Source: a bacterium (GTDB taxonomy: Bacteria > SAR324 > XYD2-FULL-50-16). Taken from it: a stretch of 21,843 bases of DNA. The position numbers and the translations under genes were made by a program. The stretch covers positions 1-21,843 of the forward strand of contig JAJRZQ010000041.1 of assembly GCA_024275165.1 (NCBI GenBank). Reading direction: 5' to 3'. Under the pieces are notes generated by a model. The model saw only the letters and a program-made list of their open reading frames with translations, did no database searches and was not told the DNA's origin. Below, in pieces: positions 10,854-21,843 of the stretch (positions within the stretch are counted from its first letter, which is position 1; the number at the start of each line of letters is the position of its first letter).

Positions 10854-12053
10854 ATGCATTTAGACATTGCCGACGGGATCGAAGGTCGTTTAAACATTAA
10901 ATGTTTGGTTGAGCAGGGCCGCATCAGCAAGCTGCGGGTGCATTCGACCCGCCCCTTGCAACTCCCGAAGGTGTTTCATGGGCGCACTCGAGACGAGGTG
11001 CTGACCATGATTCCGCGCATTTATGCCAGCAATCCGATTGCCCAAAGCTACGCCGCCGTAACCGCCTTTGAGAGCATCTTAAAGCTCAGCACGAGGGATC
11101 GGGATATGGCTTTGCGCAATCTCTTGGTGAAAATCGAGATCCTCTCTGAGCATCTTTTACGCCTGTTCTACGATTGGCCCCGTATTTTGCAAGAACAACC
11201 GCGAGCGGCCGAGGCGGATTGGATGCAAAAAAAATTGGCTCAATTGCAGCAGGCCTGCGACCCTAGGCAAGAGGCCTTTGCCTTTAATATGCGTACCCTG
11301 AAGCCGGATCAAGAAACCGGTCTGGTCATTTTAAGCGAAGTTCAAGAAGCTTTGCGCCAGGAGCTGTTTGGGATGGACCCCTTAGCCTGGGCCGGCTTGG
11401 AACCGCAGCAAATCAAAACTTGGGTCGAGCGGGCCGCTGCCCCTGCCGCGGAGATGTTGCAAGAAATACAAGGCTTAGGCATTGCCCTGTTAGGGCAGGG
11501 AGAGGTCCAGGGGTTGCCCTGGCTGGGTTTGGGCGAACTCGGCGCGGACCTGCGTTTTAAGGAGGCAGAGGAATATGCCCAGCAACCTAGCTTGAACGGC
11601 CAGATCCATGAAACCACTCCGCTCTCTCGCATGTGGGCTCAGCCTAAGGTACAGGGCTTGATCAAGCTTTTTGGGGATGGGTTATGGATGCGTATTTTAA
11701 GTCGGCTTTTAGAGACTTGCCAATGCCTAAGCGAACTCAAAACTGAATTGCTGGATCCGAAGCAAAGCCGTTTGTTTGGGCAAAGTCGGAGCCTGGCCGC
11801 CCAAGGAGTCAGTCAGATTGAAGCGGCGAGGGGAAAATTGATCCACCGGGTTGCGCTGGAAGGGGATCGGGTCAAACAATACGATATCCTGGCCCCTACG
11901 GATTGGAATTTTCACCCTCGGGGTATTTTGGCCAAGTCTTTGGTGGGGCTGCCTTATGAGGGGGATACCTCAACTCGGTTGAAAATCGAATTGCTGGTTC
12001 ACGCCTTAGACCCCTGTGTGGACTATGAAATTGAACTTGAGTCCTCTGCCTAG
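10854..12053 (+). CDS. HupK/HoxV-like [NiFe]-hydrogenase large-subunit paralogue (assembly scaffold type), metal ligands lost
   Basis: The sequence follows the plan of a [NiFe]-hydrogenase large subunit but is shorter (399 residues) and lacks its metal site. The region that should carry RICGxC reads RIYASNP (residues 55-61), without cysteine, while the following AQSYAAVTAFES keeps the helix pattern. Near the C-terminus are WNFHPRG and ALDPCVDYEIE: the distal motif DPCxxCxxH retains only Cys388, with no second Cys or His and no cleavable tail. This combination is typical of HupK/HoxV proteins, scaffolds proposed to help build the Fe(CN)2CO unit during hydrogenase maturation. No hydrogenase structural or hyp gene is in the window. 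GGGGAAGA precedes the ATG closely. The relation to large subunits is fairly secure; the role is inferred. Confidence 0.7.
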   Translation: MHLDIADGIEGRLNIKCLVEQGRISKLRVHSTRPLQLPKVFHGRTRDEVLTMIPRIYASNPIAQSYAAVTAFESILKLSTRDRDMALRNLLVKIEILSEHLLRLFYDWPRILQEQPRAAEADWMQKKLAQLQQACDPRQEAFAFNMRTLKPDQETGLVILSEVQEALRQELFGMDPLAWAGLEPQQIKTWVERAAAPAAEMLQEIQGLGIALLGQGEVQGLPWLGLGELGADLRFKEAEEYAQQPSLNGQIHETTPLSRMWAQPKVQGLIKLFGDGLWMRILSRLLETCQCLSELKTELLDPKQSRLFGQSRSLAAQGVSQIEAARGKLIHRVALEGDRVKQYDILAPTDWNFHPRGILAKSLVGLPYEGDTSTRLKIELLVHALDPCVDYEIELESSA

Positions 12054-15499: not shown

Positions 15500-16126
15500 T
15501 TAAAATTCAAAGTGATAAGCGCAGCCTTGAGCCTCATCGGCTATGGATTGTACTCGGCGTACCTTGGCTTCGGGGAAGACGCTTTTAATCACCCGAATCT
15601 CGGTTTCGCAAGGGAAGCTGTATTGGCTGGTGATGCTGCTGATCGAGCAGTTGGCGACATGCAACATATAGGATTTAGGGTCCAGGGTTTCAATGGAGGG
15701 CATATTCCCTTGCCGCTCGATAAACTGGCAATAGAGATCTAATTTTTGCCTGGGGGAAGTCGCTTCGGATAAGACCTGCCTTAATTCTTCGATGAGTCGT
15801 AGTTCTCTTTTTTGCACGACCTTTTCTAAGGTTTTGCCCGCATCGAGATTTTTGATGTCTTCGAGTAATTCCAAGGCAAAGCTGTCATAATTTTTAGGAA
15901 AGCAAGACTCGCCTTTATCGGTTAAGCTGAAGACCTGCAAGGGGCGACCGAGTTTTTGGCGCACTTGGCCCACTTGAATCAGTTCTTCTTTTTCCAGTTT
16001 GCCCAAGTGCCCGCGAATAGCCATGGGGGTAATTCCGATCTCTTCGGTAAGTTTTTTGACTGAAACGGGGCCGTTTCGTTTGATATATTCTAGCACCCGG
16101 TCGCGGGTACTGCTGGGTGAGTTCAT
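15500..16126 (-). CDS. SufR-like winged-helix transcriptional regulator
   Basis: The N-terminal ~70 residues form a DeoR/ArsR-like winged helix: RDRVLEYIKRNGPVSVKKL, then EEIGITPMAIRGHLGKLEKE as recognition region, then a wing with GRPLQVFSLTDKG. The C-terminal region follows the SufR plan, where cysteines bind an Fe-S cluster that senses iron-sulfur status: Cys160 (NCSISS), Cys173 (FPCETE) and Cys202 (QGCAYHF). The cysteine usually found about eight residues before the last one appears to be Ser194 here, so only three are seen. The ATG has AAAGGA five bases upstream. It leads an operon with the pseudouridine synthase and thiI and is divergent from the metallophosphatase. No suf or isc genes are in the window; Fe-S sensing is an inference. 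Confidence 0.8.
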   Translation of the reverse strand: MNSPSSTRDRVLEYIKRNGPVSVKKLTEEIGITPMAIRGHLGKLEKEELIQVGQVRQKLGRPLQVFSLTDKGESCFPKNYDSFALELLEDIKNLDAGKTLEKVVQKRELRLIEELRQVLSEATSPRQKLDLYCQFIERQGNMPSIETLDPKSYMLHVANCSISSITSQYSFPCETEIRVIKSVFPEAKVRRVQSIADEAQGCAYHFEF

Positions 16127-16986: not shown

Positions 16987-17535
16987 ATGAAATGTATTAT
17001 GGCAAACCCCTCTTTGGAAGCAACGGTTGACCCAAACCTGATTGCTGGTTTTATCGCTGAACTCGGTAGCGATTCCTCCGCTACCGTTCCCCTCTTGCAA
17101 GCGATCCAGACGCAATATGGCTATTTGCCCCGCACTGCGATGGATCTGGTGGTGGAGCAAACTGAAATTTCAGGGAGTCAGCTTTATGGGGTGGCTACCT
17201 TTTACGCCCAGTTTCGCTTAAAGCCCGTGGGGCGTCATTTGATTAAGGTTTGTCATGGAACGGCCTGCCATGTAACCGGGGCGGATCGGATCAATACGAG
17301 CCTCCATTATCAGCTCAATATTCAAGGGGAGGATGAAGACACGGCCTCCAACGGCAGCTATACCATGGTGGATGTGGCCTGTATCGGTTGTTGCTCCCAG
17401 GCCCCTCTGATCGTGGTCGATGAAGAAGTCCATGGCAACCTCAACGGAGCCAAGGCCCAAAAAGCGGTGCGGATGCATGCCCGAAAAGCGGGTGAAGAGT
17501 TGCCCAAAGCGGTCAAGCAATCGCTTAAATCTTAA
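16987..17535 (+). CDS. nuoE: NuoE/HydC-like [2Fe-2S] thioredoxin-fold subunit
   Basis: Small electron-transfer subunit of NADH-dependent oxidoreductase complexes (complex I NuoE, HndA/HydC of bifurcating hydrogenases). An N-terminal helical bundle (about residues 15-75, with LLQAIQTQYGYLPRTAMDLV and LYGVATFYAQF) is followed by a thioredoxin fold with the cluster cysteines Cys89-x4-Cys94 (CHGTAC) and Cys132-x3-Cys136 (CIGCC). All four ligands are present. The first ATG (16987) and a second one at 16999 are both possible; neither has a clear ribosome site. The gene stops 15 bases before the nuoF-like gene, and the two plus the following fusion gene form an operon. Which complex it serves is decided by the partners, not by this subunit. 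Confidence 0.93.
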   Translation: MKCIMANPSLEATVDPNLIAGFIAELGSDSSATVPLLQAIQTQYGYLPRTAMDLVVEQTEISGSQLYGVATFYAQFRLKPVGRHLIKVCHGTACHVTGADRINTSLHYQLNIQGEDEDTASNGSYTMVDVACIGCCSQAPLIVVDEEVHGNLNGAKAQKAVRMHARKAGEELPKAVKQSLKS

Positions 17536-17550
17536 TCAGGGAAGAGAAGT

Positions 17551-19332
17551 ATGAACGCTCAAGGTATTGAAATCATTGTTGGGGAAGGAACATGCGGGAT
17601 CGCGGCCGGCTCCAAAGAGGTGATTGATATTTTTAAAGAACAGGCCCCGGGGGCAAAGGTGCGCTCTGTTTCTTGCGCCGGTATGTGCCATATGGAAGTC
17701 ATTACCGAGGTTCGAGACGCCACGGGAAAAAGCTTTATGTATGGGAAGGTGAATAAAAAAGGGGTTGCCAAGATTTTAGACTTCCACTTAAAGGGGGGCG
17801 CTTTTCCAGAGGAGTTGCAGATTGTCAGCCCCCAGGCGCCGGAACATGAAAACAGCCAATACTTAGCCCGGCAAACCCGCATCGCTCTGCGCAATGTAGG
17901 GCAGTTGGACCCCACCAGCATTGAGGAGTATCAATCTCGCGACGGCTACAAGGCGATTGAAAAGATTTTGAGAGAGGGCCTGAGCCAAGACCAGGTGATC
18001 GCCGAGGTGAAAACCGCCGGAATCCGCGGGCGCGGTGGGGCGGGGTTTCCCACGGCAGTCAAATGGGGTTTTGCCAAAGCGCAGGACTCAGAAACAAAAT
18101 ACCTTGTCTGCAACGGTGACGAGGGGGATCCCGGGGCCTTTATGGATCGCTCCTTACTGGAAGGAGACCCCCACAATGTCATCGAGGGGATGCTGATCGC
18201 GGCCTATGCTTTCGGCGCCAATAAAGGCTACGCTTATATCCGCGCCGAGTATCCCCTGGCGGTGAAGAACTTTGGCCTCGCCATTGAAAAGGCGAAAAAA
18301 GCGGGTTACTTGGGCGAGAACATCTTAGGCAGTAAGATGTCCTTTGAGCTAAAGATCAAAGAAGGGGCCGGGGCCTTTGTCTGCGGTGAGGAAACCGCTC
18401 TTTTGGCCTCCATCGAAGGGGAGCGGGGGATGCCTCGTTTGCGCCCGCCCTTCCCCGCGGTGAAGGGCCTTTTTGGCAAGCCGACCATCATCAACAATGT
18501 TGAAACCCTATCCAACCTCGCCTGGATCATCAACCAGGGAGGGGAGGCCTATGCCGCCTACGGCACCGAGGATTCCAAGGGCACCAAGGTCTTTGCCTTG
18601 GCCGGCGCGGTCAAGCGCGGCGGTTTGGTCGAGGTTCCCATGGGCACCACCTTGCGTGAGGTGATCTACGATATCGGGGGCGGGAGCTCTACCGACAGAC
18701 CCATCAAGGCGATTCAGTTGGGTGGCCCCTCCGGGGGGGTTATCCCCGCGGAGGTGTTCGATACCCCTATTGAATACGCGGCCATCAACGCGACCGGCGC
18801 CATCATGGGCTCGGGAGGGATGATTGTGATGGATTCCAAAACCTGCATGGTGGACTTGGCGAAGTTTTTTATGGAGTTCAATCACTTGGAATCCTGTGGG
18901 AAATGTACCCTTTGCCGGATTGGCACCTTAAGGATTCGCGAACTCTTGAGCAAAATCAGCGAGGGAAAGGGCGCCATGGAGGATTTGGATATTTTGGAAA
19001 ACCTTTCCAAACAGGTGATGAGCGGCTCCCTCTGTGCCTTAGGCGGGACCGCGCCCAACCCGGTGCTGACCACCTTGCGCTATTTCCGTAGCGAATATGA
19101 GGCGCATATTAATGAGAAACGCTGCCCTGCCGCCGTGTGTAAGGCGTTGATCAGTCATGTGGTGATTCAGGCGGATTGCACGGGCTGCACCCTTTGCGAA
19201 AAGGCCTGCCCCACCGATGCCATTACCGGACAACCCAAGGTGGCGCACAGTTACGAGATTGATATGAATAAATGTATTAATTGCAGCATGTGTGTTGAAG
19301 TCTGCAAGCCCGATTGCATCCTCGTTGAATAA
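17551..19332 (+). CDS. nuoF: NuoF/HydB-like NADH-binding flavoprotein with extra N- and C-terminal Fe-S modules
   Basis: FMN- and NAD(H)-binding subunit. Residues 1-75 form a thioredoxin-like module with Cys15, Cys42 and Cys46 (GTCGIAAG and CAGMC). The NuoF core follows: FMN loop GRGGAGFP at 160-167, NGDEGDPGAFMDR at 188-200, GAFVCGEETALLASIEG at 274-290, the SLBB-type region, and the N3 [4Fe-4S] site Cys449-x2-Cys452-x2-Cys455 with Cys495. The C-terminus adds a two-cluster ferredoxin: Cys543/546/549/553 and Cys575/578/581/585. This long form (593 residues) is typical of HydB/HndC-type subunits in bifurcating hydrogenases, NAD-dependent formate dehydrogenases and Sporomusa-type Nfn rather than classical complex I. 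GGAAGAGAAG lies just before the ATG. It is translated between the nuoE-like and fusion genes. Confidence 0.94.
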   Translation: MNAQGIEIIVGEGTCGIAAGSKEVIDIFKEQAPGAKVRSVSCAGMCHMEVITEVRDATGKSFMYGKVNKKGVAKILDFHLKGGAFPEELQIVSPQAPEHENSQYLARQTRIALRNVGQLDPTSIEEYQSRDGYKAIEKILREGLSQDQVIAEVKTAGIRGRGGAGFPTAVKWGFAKAQDSETKYLVCNGDEGDPGAFMDRSLLEGDPHNVIEGMLIAAYAFGANKGYAYIRAEYPLAVKNFGLAIEKAKKAGYLGENILGSKMSFELKIKEGAGAFVCGEETALLASIEGERGMPRLRPPFPAVKGLFGKPTIINNVETLSNLAWIINQGGEAYAAYGTEDSKGTKVFALAGAVKRGGLVEVPMGTTLREVIYDIGGGSSTDRPIKAIQLGGPSGGVIPAEVFDTPIEYAAINATGAIMGSGGMIVMDSKTCMVDLAKFFMEFNHLESCGKCTLCRIGTLRIRELLSKISEGKGAMEDLDILENLSKQVMSGSLCALGGTAPNPVLTTLRYFRSEYEAHINEKRCPAAVCKALISHVVIQADCTGCTLCEKACPTDAITGQPKVAHSYEIDMNKCINCSMCVEVCKPDCILVE

Positions 19333-19353
19333 CTCTATTTAAAAAATCGACTC

Positions 19354-21843
19354 ATGAGCCAAGAAGTAAAAATCATCCTCAATGGTCAAGAGGTTTCGGT
19401 CCCTGCCGATTCCACCATCCGCGAAGCGGCAGAGGCAAAGGGGTACCACATCCCTACCTTTTGTTACGATAAGCGAATGAAGCCCTATACCAGTTGCTTT
19501 TTATGCGTGGTTGAGGTGGAAGGCGCCCGGGGGATGATTCCCTCCTGCGGCACCAAGGTGGCGCCCGGAATGAAGGTGCAAACCGATTCGCCCAAGGTGA
19601 AGGAAGCGCGGACGATGAACCTAAACCTCACCTTAAGCGATCACGCCGGGGATTGTGTGGCCCCCTGCGAAACCAAATGCCCCTCGAATGTAGATATTCA
19701 GGGGTATATCGCTCATATCGCCAATGGGCAGTACGAAGCGGCAGCCCGCTTGATTAAGGAGCGCAATCCCCTGCCCGTGGTTTGCGGTCGGATTTGCCCT
19801 CACCCTTGCGAGTCCCAATGTCGTCGGACTTTGGTTGACGAGCCCGTGGCCATCAACCCCTTAAAGCGTTTCGCTTCAGAGTACGAGTTGGAACAGGGCC
19901 CCTTCATGCCCGAGGTGGGCGCGGATACGGGCAGAAAGGTCGCCATCGTGGGCGGCGGCCCCGCAGGGCTGACCGCCGCTTATTATCTGCGCCAAATGGG
20001 CCACGCCGTTGACCTCTATGACATGATGCCCCAATTGGGGGGGATGGTTCGTTACGGGATTCCCAGCTTTCGCCTGCCCTGGGATTTATTGGACGGCGAG
20101 ATTGCCTCGATTATCGACATGGGGGTGCAGGTGAACTTGAACCAAAAATTGGGCCGTGACTTTTCCTTGGTTGATTTGCAAAGCCAAGGGGCGGACGCGG
20201 TATTGCTCGCCATTGGGGCCTTTAAGTCTAAAAAAATGGGCCTGGAGGGGGAAGATATTCCCGGCATTGTTGGGGGGGTGGATTTCTTGCAAGAGGTGGT
20301 TTTGGACCGCCACCAAAAACAAGGGGAGACGGCCTGCGTCATCGGCGGCGGGGATACGGCCATGGATTGCTGCCGAGTGGCTCTGCGTAAGGGGTACAAG
20401 GTGACCCTGCTCTATCGGCGAACCCAAGAGGAAATGCCGGCGGCGCACTACGAAATCGAAGAAGCGATGGAAGAGGGGGTGGAATTTCGCTTTCTCACCG
20501 CCCCGACCGGAGTTCTCGCCCAAAACGGCAGGGCCACGGGGTTGCAGGTGATCACCATGGAATTGGGTGAGCCCGACTCAGGAGGCCGCCGTCGCCCGAT
20601 CCCGATCCAGGGAACCGAAGAGGAATTAAACTTTGATTTGATTATCTCCGCCATTGGGCAAGACCCCGATATGGACGCTACCTTAAAGTTGGAAGCAGAG
20701 CAGCCGGAGATCACCAAATGGAGTACCTTTGTCTATGACCAAGCCAACATGGCGACCAGTCTGCCCGGGGTTTTTGCCGCCGGGGATTGCGCCTGGGGGC
20801 CTGAAACGGTGATTCGCGCCATCAGCGAGGGGAAGAATGCCGCTAAGGCGATCAACCTCTACCTTTCGGGGGTCGAGGTGAAACTGGTGAAACCGTATGA
20901 GATCAGCCGTGGCTGGCTGGAAGACTTAAACAGCGCGGATTGGGCCCCCCGTTGGGAGCATCAGCGGCGCTTGCAAGATCAGGTCAAACCACCGGAAGAA
21001 CGACTTGCCGGAGGGGGCTACGGCCCGATCAATCTCGGGTTGAACGAGGCGCAAGCCTTGGCCGAATCAACCCGCTGTATCGAATGTGGTTGCAATGCCC
21101 GTTTCACCTGCGATTTACGCGATTACTCCACCGAGTACGGGGCGAGCGAAAAGATATTCAAAGGGCAAAAACGCGATTACGCCGAGGACGCGAGGCACCC
21201 CTTGATCAAGATCGAGGCCGACAAGTGCATTACCTGTGGGTCTTGTGTGCGGGTCTGTAGTGAATTGCGCGACATCAACGCCTTGGCCTTGGAAAACCGA
21301 GGATTTTTTACCAAGATCGTCCCCGCTTTTGGCGATGCCTTGCAGGAAACCGCTTGCGATGCCTGCGGCATGTGCCACGATGTGTGCCCTACCGGCGCCA
21401 TGGCCTTGAATACGGGGAAGGAATGCGGCCCCTGGTTGACCGACCTCACTACCACCACCTGCACGGCATGTAGCCGGGGCTGCGCGTTGAGGGTGCATAG
21501 TCGAGATGGCCGCTTTACCAAAGTGGAATCAGTGGTTTCCGACTCCACCAATGGCGGGGTGATCTGCCGTGATGGCCGCTTTCAATTTCAGCTTGTTGAC
21601 CCGCAACCCCTGGTGGTGAGCGAAGTGGCCATGGTGAAAGAATGGGTGGACGCGGCAAGGAAAGTCAGCCTGATTGTGGGTTCGGGCTTAACGGTCGAAG
21701 AAATCTACGCGGCCAAAAAGTTTGCTAAACTCAAGGGCGGGAGTTTGTATTACTTGGCGGGAGAGGTCAAAGAGTCCTCTAAAAAACCCTATGCGAAAAT
21801 TGAGTCCTTGGCCAATATCTCGCTTTTGGAAAAGTTGGGAGCC
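19354..21843 (+). CDS. Multidomain Fe-S flavoprotein: NuoG-type [2Fe-2S] + GltD/NfnB-like NADPH module + [4Fe-4S] clusters + molybdopterin-oxidoreductase-like domain (partial)
   Basis: The frame is open for 830 codons and runs off the window. Domains in order: NuoG-type [2Fe-2S] with Cys37/48/51/65; GltD-like N-terminal cluster region (Cys101/105/109 and Cys144/148/152/156); FAD motif GGGPAG at 200-205; NAD(P)H motif GGGDTAMD at 331-338 with YRRTQEEMPA (354-363), whose arginines favour NADPH; second FAD motif GVFAAGDCAWGPE (472-484). Then come Fe-S sites: Cys575/578/580/586, Cys625/628/631/635 and Cys668/671/674/678. The last visible part is a Fe4S4 domain of the molybdopterin-oxidoreductase type (Cys703/706/710/738, then CRDGRF) and the beginning of the next domain. 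It is the third gene of the nuoE–nuoF operon, 21 bases after nuoF. Whether the C-terminus is catalytic (formate dehydrogenase-like) or degenerate (NuoG-like) cannot be seen. Confidence 0.92.
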   Translation, partial: MSQEVKIILNGQEVSVPADSTIREAAEAKGYHIPTFCYDKRMKPYTSCFLCVVEVEGARGMIPSCGTKVAPGMKVQTDSPKVKEARTMNLNLTLSDHAGDCVAPCETKCPSNVDIQGYIAHIANGQYEAAARLIKERNPLPVVCGRICPHPCESQCRRTLVDEPVAINPLKRFASEYELEQGPFMPEVGADTGRKVAIVGGGPAGLTAAYYLRQMGHAVDLYDMMPQLGGMVRYGIPSFRLPWDLLDGEIASIIDMGVQVNLNQKLGRDFSLVDLQSQGADAVLLAIGAFKSKKMGLEGEDIPGIVGGVDFLQEVVLDRHQKQGETACVIGGGDTAMDCCRVALRKGYKVTLLYRRTQEEMPAAHYEIEEAMEEGVEFRFLTAPTGVLAQNGRATGLQVITMELGEPDSGGRRRPIPIQGTEEELNFDLIISAIGQDPDMDATLKLEAEQPEITKWSTFVYDQANMATSLPGVFAAGDCAWGPETVIRAISEGKNAAKAINLYLSGVEVKLVKPYEISRGWLEDLNSADWAPRWEHQRRLQDQVKPPEERLAGGGYGPINLGLNEAQALAESTRCIECGCNARFTCDLRDYSTEYGASEKIFKGQKRDYAEDARHPLIKIEADKCITCGSCVRVCSELRDINALALENRGFFTKIVPAFGDALQETACDACGMCHDVCPTGAMALNTGKECGPWLTDLTTTTCTACSRGCALRVHSRDGRFTKVESVVSDSTNGGVICRDGRFQFQLVDPQPLVVSEVAMVKEWVDAARKVSLIVGSGLTVEEIYAAKKFAKLKGGSLYYLAGEVKESSKKPYAKIESLANISLLEKLGA

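Follow-up and report, generated by a model that had tools for sequence, protein, structure and literature searches.

A probable Stn-type electron-bifurcating transhydrogenase with a shortened large subunit in a SAR324 bacterium

The defining feature of the Bfu family is a BfuBC core that carries a special B2 cluster, with three Cys and one His as ligands, together with ferredoxin-binding clusters (PMC9304861). The clusters B2 to B5 separate bifurcating BfuB from its non-bifurcating homologues, from which the B2 His is missing (PMC9304861). In StnABC of Sporomusa ovata, the large subunit StnC has 1172 amino acids (aa), of which aa 102-565 are GltD-like and aa 683-1172 are FdhF-like but inactive, and K170 is strictly conserved (PMC10482914). 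Mutation of StnC K170 and R239 in S. ovata led to loss of activity. The S. ovata enzyme, which has been expressed in E. coli, depends on its FdhF-like domain to assemble. For the Nfn-Bfu enzyme of Thermococcus sibiricus, NAD+-dependent ferredoxin reduction by NADPH has been shown (PMC9304861). Here we describe a three-gene operon from a bacterium of the SAR324 lineage that very probably encodes a Stn-type (Nfn-Bfu, Type 1 Bfu) electron-bifurcating NADPH/NADH/ferredoxin transhydrogenase, an enzyme type that keeps these three electron carriers in balance. The operon lies on a contig of 21,843 bp (C33), the whole of which is called the window, and the contig end cuts its last gene, stnC.

Architecture and cofactor ligands of the operon

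Three open reading frames follow one another on the forward strand of the window, at 16987-17535, 17551-19332 and 19354-21843, the last remaining open at the window end. An earlier note on this DNA had recognised in 16987-21843 a NuoE-like, a NuoF-like and a fused [2Fe-2S]-GltD-NuoG protein; its coordinates are right, and Pfam and NCBIfam scans of the window proteins gave domain matches far above cut-off. The first gene (182 aa, 16987-17535) is stnA/bfuC-like and encodes a NuoE-type subunit with a thioredoxin-fold [2Fe-2S] domain (2Fe-2S_thioredx, PF01257, E 8e-42). The second (593 aa, 17551-19332) is stnB/bfuB-like, and its NuoF-like product, the predicted bifurcating FMN/NAD(H) subunit, contains Complex1_51K (1e-47), SLBB and NADH_4Fe-4S (3e-31) domains, followed by a C-terminal ferredoxin domain with two [4Fe-4S] clusters. 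The third, stnC/bfuA-like, is represented at 19354-21843 by codons 1-830 of 974, with the remainder on contig C13 (positions 1-780).

The large subunit begins with a NuoG/HydA-type [2Fe-2S] domain (aa 1-101, window 19354-19656; Fer2_4, PF13510, aa 3-79), whose C37, C48, C51 and C65 are kept in the aligned set. A GltD/NfnB-like FAD/NADPH module with N-terminal [4Fe-4S] sites comes next (aa 101-506, 19654-20871), matched by Fer4_20 (PF14691, aa 101-181) and Pyr_redox_2 (PF07992, aa 195-493). The NuoG-type [4Fe-4S] sites at aa 575-690 (21076-21423; Fer4_Nqo3, PF22117, aa 616-683) have the cluster cysteines C575/578/580/586, C625/628/631/635 and C668/671/674/678, which are kept in StnC and in both the short-tail and long-tail sets of relatives described below. 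The window closes with the start of a degenerate FdhF/NuoG-like domain (aa 699-830, 21448-21843) that has a [4Fe-4S] site at C703/C706/C710/C738 (Molybdop_Fe4S4, PF04879, aa 699-748). The final 345 bp of C33 recur in frame at the start of C13 with two mismatches (T/A at window 21632 and A/C at 21727), which may represent strain variation or a second stnC copy, and the joined frame reaches a stop at C13 position 780 to give 974 aa. In three relatives of the window's family, stnC is intact, with open frames of 975, 986 and 990 aa, and the two genes that come after it are those found on C13, a ferritin-like gene and its next neighbour, which supports the join.

For all three genes, the top PDB matches that cover most of the protein are subunits of 8oh5 (StnABC), 9bov and 9n5u (NfnABC): 9n5u_C, 9bov_C and 8oh5_A for StnA, 8oh5_B for StnB (E 5e-222, aligned over aa 8-593, cluster Cys included), and 9bov_A, 9n5u_A and 8oh5_C for the large subunit, with 9bov_A from NfnABC of Caldicellulosiruptor saccharolyticus scoring best (E 5e-202). 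In the StnB alignment, the B2 ligands C432, H519, C525 and C530 are each present in 71 of 71 relatives, and the Cys of the ferredoxin domain are conserved. The large subunit and its aligned relatives keep the StnC cluster Cys. Two residues of the GltD/NfnB-like module, K171 and R240, correspond to StnC K170 and R239 and occur in 77/77 relatives; K171 is the lysine near cluster C7 that replaces a Glu of NfnB. The BfuC/StnA-type [2Fe-2S] subunit and the BfuA order of [2Fe-2S], GltD (FAD/NADPH), NuoG Fe-S and FdhF-like domains are also found, and the gene order A-B-C is kept in nearly all loci long enough to reveal it. Since every sequence feature that could be tested matched, the operon is assigned to the Stn/Nfn-Bfu group. 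An NfnAB-type assignment was not borne out, as a separate NfnA is not in the operon and the window's own genome has only a match of 27.5 bits against a cut-off of 220 bits.

Several points weigh against the assignment. The fifth B2 ligand is Ser470 in the window protein, where 25 of the 27 clade members have Cys and StnB has Thr, and the site of StnC C114 is Ile115, with Ile or Val throughout the relatives; both positions vary among known or related enzymes. The complete stnC depends on the link between two contigs whose 345-bp overlap contains 2 mismatches. In addition, activity across the short-tail clade is predicted from sequence, and NADP(H), rather than NAD(H), is the putative ligand of the GltD site. 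Taken together, this is an enzyme of a known kind and ordinary in design, but it belongs to a distinct branch in uncultured respiring bacteria.

The shortened C-terminal domain and a separate clade

The earlier note had seen kinship with StnABC in the combination of a NAD/FMN Hyd/NuoEF module with a GltD/NuoG-type NADPH subunit, and in this it was correct. It had also supposed that an added molybdopterin domain made the complex a larger variant. No domain has been added here, because StnC itself carries the NuoG/FdhF domain, and the window protein is the smaller of the two (974 versus 1172 aa). A characterised protein of exactly this architecture, whose existence the note had named as evidence against its own proposal, is StnC of S. 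ovata, with the identical domain order.

Counted from the last cluster Cys, C738, the tail of the window protein is 237 residues long; tails in its clade have about 247 residues and those of the longer group about 487. It has no Cys from 739 to 959, and the next one, C960, is not conserved; when the gene was read to its end, as the note had advised, the completed 974-aa frame contained no catalytic Cys/Sec of the formate dehydrogenase type. The tail was modelled (259 aa) from 28 sequences with a mean predicted local distance difference test (pLDDT) score of 86; 239 residues of the model align to StnC 715-1172 with a Z of 18.7, and the Z to complex I NuoG subunits is up to 18.8. The modelled tail is a shortened NuoG/FdhF domain, catalytically empty and probably structural in role. 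The short large subunit was dropped as a novelty in itself, given that StnC homologues span 891-1241 aa (Kremp et al., PMC7483475).

The operon is also present in three genomes of the window's family, whose large subunits are 63-64% identical to that of the window. When species genomes were scanned with an alignment of four family members as query (a single protein gave nothing), two sets came back. The first, at about 54-65% identity, comes from Scalindua/Brocadiaceae, Lambdaproteobacteria, Magnetococcales, 'Oligoflexia' metagenome-assembled genomes (MAGs) and one Rhodocyclaceae MAG, the second, at about 40% identity, from Bacteroidota, Ignavibacteria, Delongbacteria and others. In a midpoint-rooted StnB tree, with four reference sequences transcribed from alignments, the first set forms one group (SH-like approximate likelihood ratio test, SH-aLRT, 100; stem 0.57) apart from the sequences of S. 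ovata, 9bov and 9n5u. Patterns taken from the family's own sequences were used to draw the sample, in which Firmicutes are therefore under-represented. The window stands beside the Lambdaproteobacteria (99), and these stand next to Planctomycetota (92). The short-tail clade of Ca. Lambdaproteobacteria (which we take to be SAR324), anammox Scalindua, Magnetococcales and 'Oligoflexia' MAGs is well supported. In Scalindua, Magnetococcales and Oligoflexia MAGs, the neighbours of the stn genes look unrelated (thiG, histidine biosynthesis, MatE, SCO1, Na/Pi transporter). The accessible parts of the published distribution lists name Firmicutes, Proteobacteria, Synergistetes, Bacteroidetes and Euryarchaeota, and not the lineages of this clade (PMC9304861, PMC7483475). 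No description of the clade, of its diiron partner or of Stn in Lambdaproteobacteria was found in the accessible parts of the open-access literature searched.

Genomic setting and alternative readings

About 80 bp 3' of stnC, on the same strand, lies a gene for a rubrerythrin/ferritin-like protein of 149 aa (C13 860-1309; PF02915, E 3e-18). It occupies the place where the earlier note had proposed to look for nuoH-N, none of which follow the operon. By profile search, such a gene stands directly 3' of stnC and on its strand in 25 of 69 testable loci: 6/28 in the short clade (three of the window family and three of Magnetococcales) and 19/41 in the long group, Bacteroidota-type loci included. 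Only one locus (L058) has it elsewhere, about 0.9 kb downstream. Four Glu and two His, as expected for a diiron site, are invariant in all 27 ferritin-like proteins. The association with stnABC is real, yet it is no requirement of the core enzyme. Rub-Bfu, in which rubrerythrin lies beside BfuBC and BfuA is absent, was predicted earlier (PMC9304861), and the portion of the literature accessible to the search gave no description of a rubrerythrin-type gene together with a full Nfn-type BfuA; the gene is a recurrent, apparently undescribed diiron partner of stnABC. A conserved 641-aa protein with no family match adjoins the ferritin-like gene in 4 of 4 window-family loci (C13 1460-3385).

The window's own genome, which is 98% complete, contains a single complex I cluster, nuoABCDHIJ(K)LMN, which lacks nuoEFG and has a PFOR gene after it (C17, about 69,373-79,762); NuoK gave no separate match and is assumed to lie in the NuoJ-NuoL gap. 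The same EFG-less cluster is found in all three relatives, and in all four genomes the stn genes are on other contigs than the nuo genes. RnfC of the window's genome aside, StnB is the only NuoF-like (PF01512) protein in the four genomes. Each of the three relatives has one NuoF-family protein, which in two is StnB itself; that of the third (G001) is assumed to be StnB as well, its gene and the stnC fragment being on different contigs. These findings point to a link between Stn and a complex I without NADH module. An ordinary complex I variant was rejected, as no nuoH-N lie 3' of the operon and the complex I cluster sits on C17. The window's genome also has Rnf, PFOR and 2-oxoacid:ferredoxin oxidoreductase (OGOR) genes, named from their translations without a family scan; the Rnf cluster, in the order rnfBCDGEA by eye (C7:31000-46000), lies between a fused PFOR and 2-oxoacid:ferredoxin oxidoreductase genes. 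Two haem-copper oxidase genes are present. As to nitrogenase as a ferredoxin consumer, the best PF00142 match is modest (60.7 bits, C13:29606), and PF00142 also matches all control genomes.

Roles other than that of a Stn-type transhydrogenase were weighed against these data. The earlier note had suggested an enzyme that couples formate or another molybdopterin substrate to NAD and NADP. Fdh-Bfu enzymes do exist (PMC9304861) and the Molybdop_Fe4S4 domain is present, but the stretch between C738 and C960 leaves no catalytic Cys/Sec, the tail is about half as long as in the long group and folds as a shortened domain, and even the full-length StnC domain has been described as inactive (PMC10482914), so that this reading is hardly credible. 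It is also very unlikely that the three proteins serve as the detached dehydrogenase module of complex I, docking on its NuoEFG-less form and feeding electrons from NADH/NADPH to quinone. Such docking would suit the four EFG-less clusters, the standing of StnB as sole PF01512 protein besides RnfC, the NuoG-like domains of StnC and the Bfu-type complex I (Nuo-Bfu) that has been proposed (PMC9304861). However, the stn and nuo genes are on separate contigs throughout, the family match is to the soluble StnABC, and the lack of nuoEFG is seen in four related genomes, Scalindua and Magnetococcales, which hold the closest relatives, not being among them. Moreover, according to the accessible part of one source, a complex I without NADH module is encoded by many bacterial genomes (PMC11238625).

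A four-subunit enzyme, in which the Stn complex would deliver electrons to the diiron protein as terminal H2O2/O2 reductase, is less improbable than docking, though still unlikely. It would agree with the invariant diiron ligands, with a gene that stands 3' of stnC across two divergent groups and lies downstream even in the one exception, and with the earlier proposal of Rub-Bfu (PMC9304861). Nevertheless, the gene is missing in most short-clade loci, all testable Scalindua ones included, which indicates that the core enzyme works without it; the diiron protein has no rubredoxin domain, and it could be just a co-regulated protective protein. Slightly more doubtful is a wider proposal, in which Stn of this clade would be more than a soluble transhydrogenase: together with the diiron protein it would form a four-subunit enzyme able to transfer electrons from NAD(P)H/ferredoxin to peroxide or O2, and/or it would supply electrons, directly or as ferredoxin, to the NuoEFG-less complex I. 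If this were true, one soluble bifurcating module would replace the NADH arm of respiration in Lambdaproteobacteria.

Elsewhere in the window, a 399-aa protein (10854-12053) matches the large subunit of NiFe-hydrogenase, chiefly the C-terminal part. It lacks the metal-binding Cys pairs, ends DPCVDYEIELESSA, and is possibly a HupK/HoxV-like protein or a degenerate homologue; a fuller NiFe-hydrogenase large subunit is encoded at C47:178685-179989 of the same genome. The opposite strand encodes, upstream of the operon (15500-16126), a SufR-like helix-turn-helix regulator (iron-sulfur biogenesis repressor), whose score of 93.5 bits lies below the cut-off of 178.8 bits.

Proposed mechanism and comparison with known systems

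Architecture, cofactor ligands, family membership, clade, shortened tail and genome survey are direct results of this analysis. Substrates, direction and bifurcation mechanism we infer from the published S. ovata and T. sibiricus enzymes, the mechanism being modelled on the former. For a Stn-type transhydrogenase, NADPH would give its electrons to the FAD of the GltD domain, from which they would move singly along the NuoG-type Fe-S chain to the FMN in StnB, where NAD+ would take a hydride. Low-potential electrons would reach ferredoxin (Fd) via the FMN, B2, the mobile StnA [2Fe-2S] cluster and the C-terminal ferredoxin domain of StnB. The overall reaction would be 2 NADPH + NAD+ + 2 Fd(ox) <-> 2 NADP+ + NADH + 2 Fd(red), and the C-terminal NuoG/FdhF-like domain would have a structural role. 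The direction most likely to prevail in the cell is the formation of NADPH from NADH and reduced ferredoxin made by PFOR/OGOR, given that neither PntB nor an NfnA over the family cut-off was found in the window's own genome, and that ferredoxin would come from PFOR and the 2-oxoacid:ferredoxin oxidoreductases. These results place a Stn-type bifurcating transhydrogenase in lineages of respiring bacteria not yet in culture (Ca. Lambdaproteobacteria, anammox Scalindua and magnetotactic Magnetococcales), where it is a testable candidate source of both NADPH and low-potential ferredoxin.

StnABC of S. ovata (8oh5/8oh9; PMC10482914, PMC7483475) shares with the operon three genes in the same order, the StnC domain order, the equivalents of K170 and R239, the StnC cluster Cys and a Bfu-type StnB. 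It differs in its StnC of 1172 aa, compared with 974 aa and a shortened FdhF-like domain here; the window has Ile in place of C114 and, as fifth B2 ligand, Ser where StnB has Thr, belongs to another clade and has a diiron gene downstream. NfnABC of C. saccharolyticus (9bov/9bp5), compared by structure match and length, is also a Bfu member and gives the top PDB match of the large subunit, but its own large subunit has 1178 aa with a full C-terminal domain. The archaeal-type NfnABC 9n5u_A-C, which we take to be the T. sibiricus Nfn-Bfu, has a 963-aa NfnA, similar in length to the window's large subunit, whereas the window protein has retained cluster cysteines (A4; C2) that are missing from the T. 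sibiricus enzyme. The predicted Rub-Bfu (Type 4 Bfu; PMC9304861) likewise has a rubrerythrin-type gene beside the BfuBC core, but it has no BfuA, while here a full Nfn-type BfuA stands between BfuB and the diiron gene.

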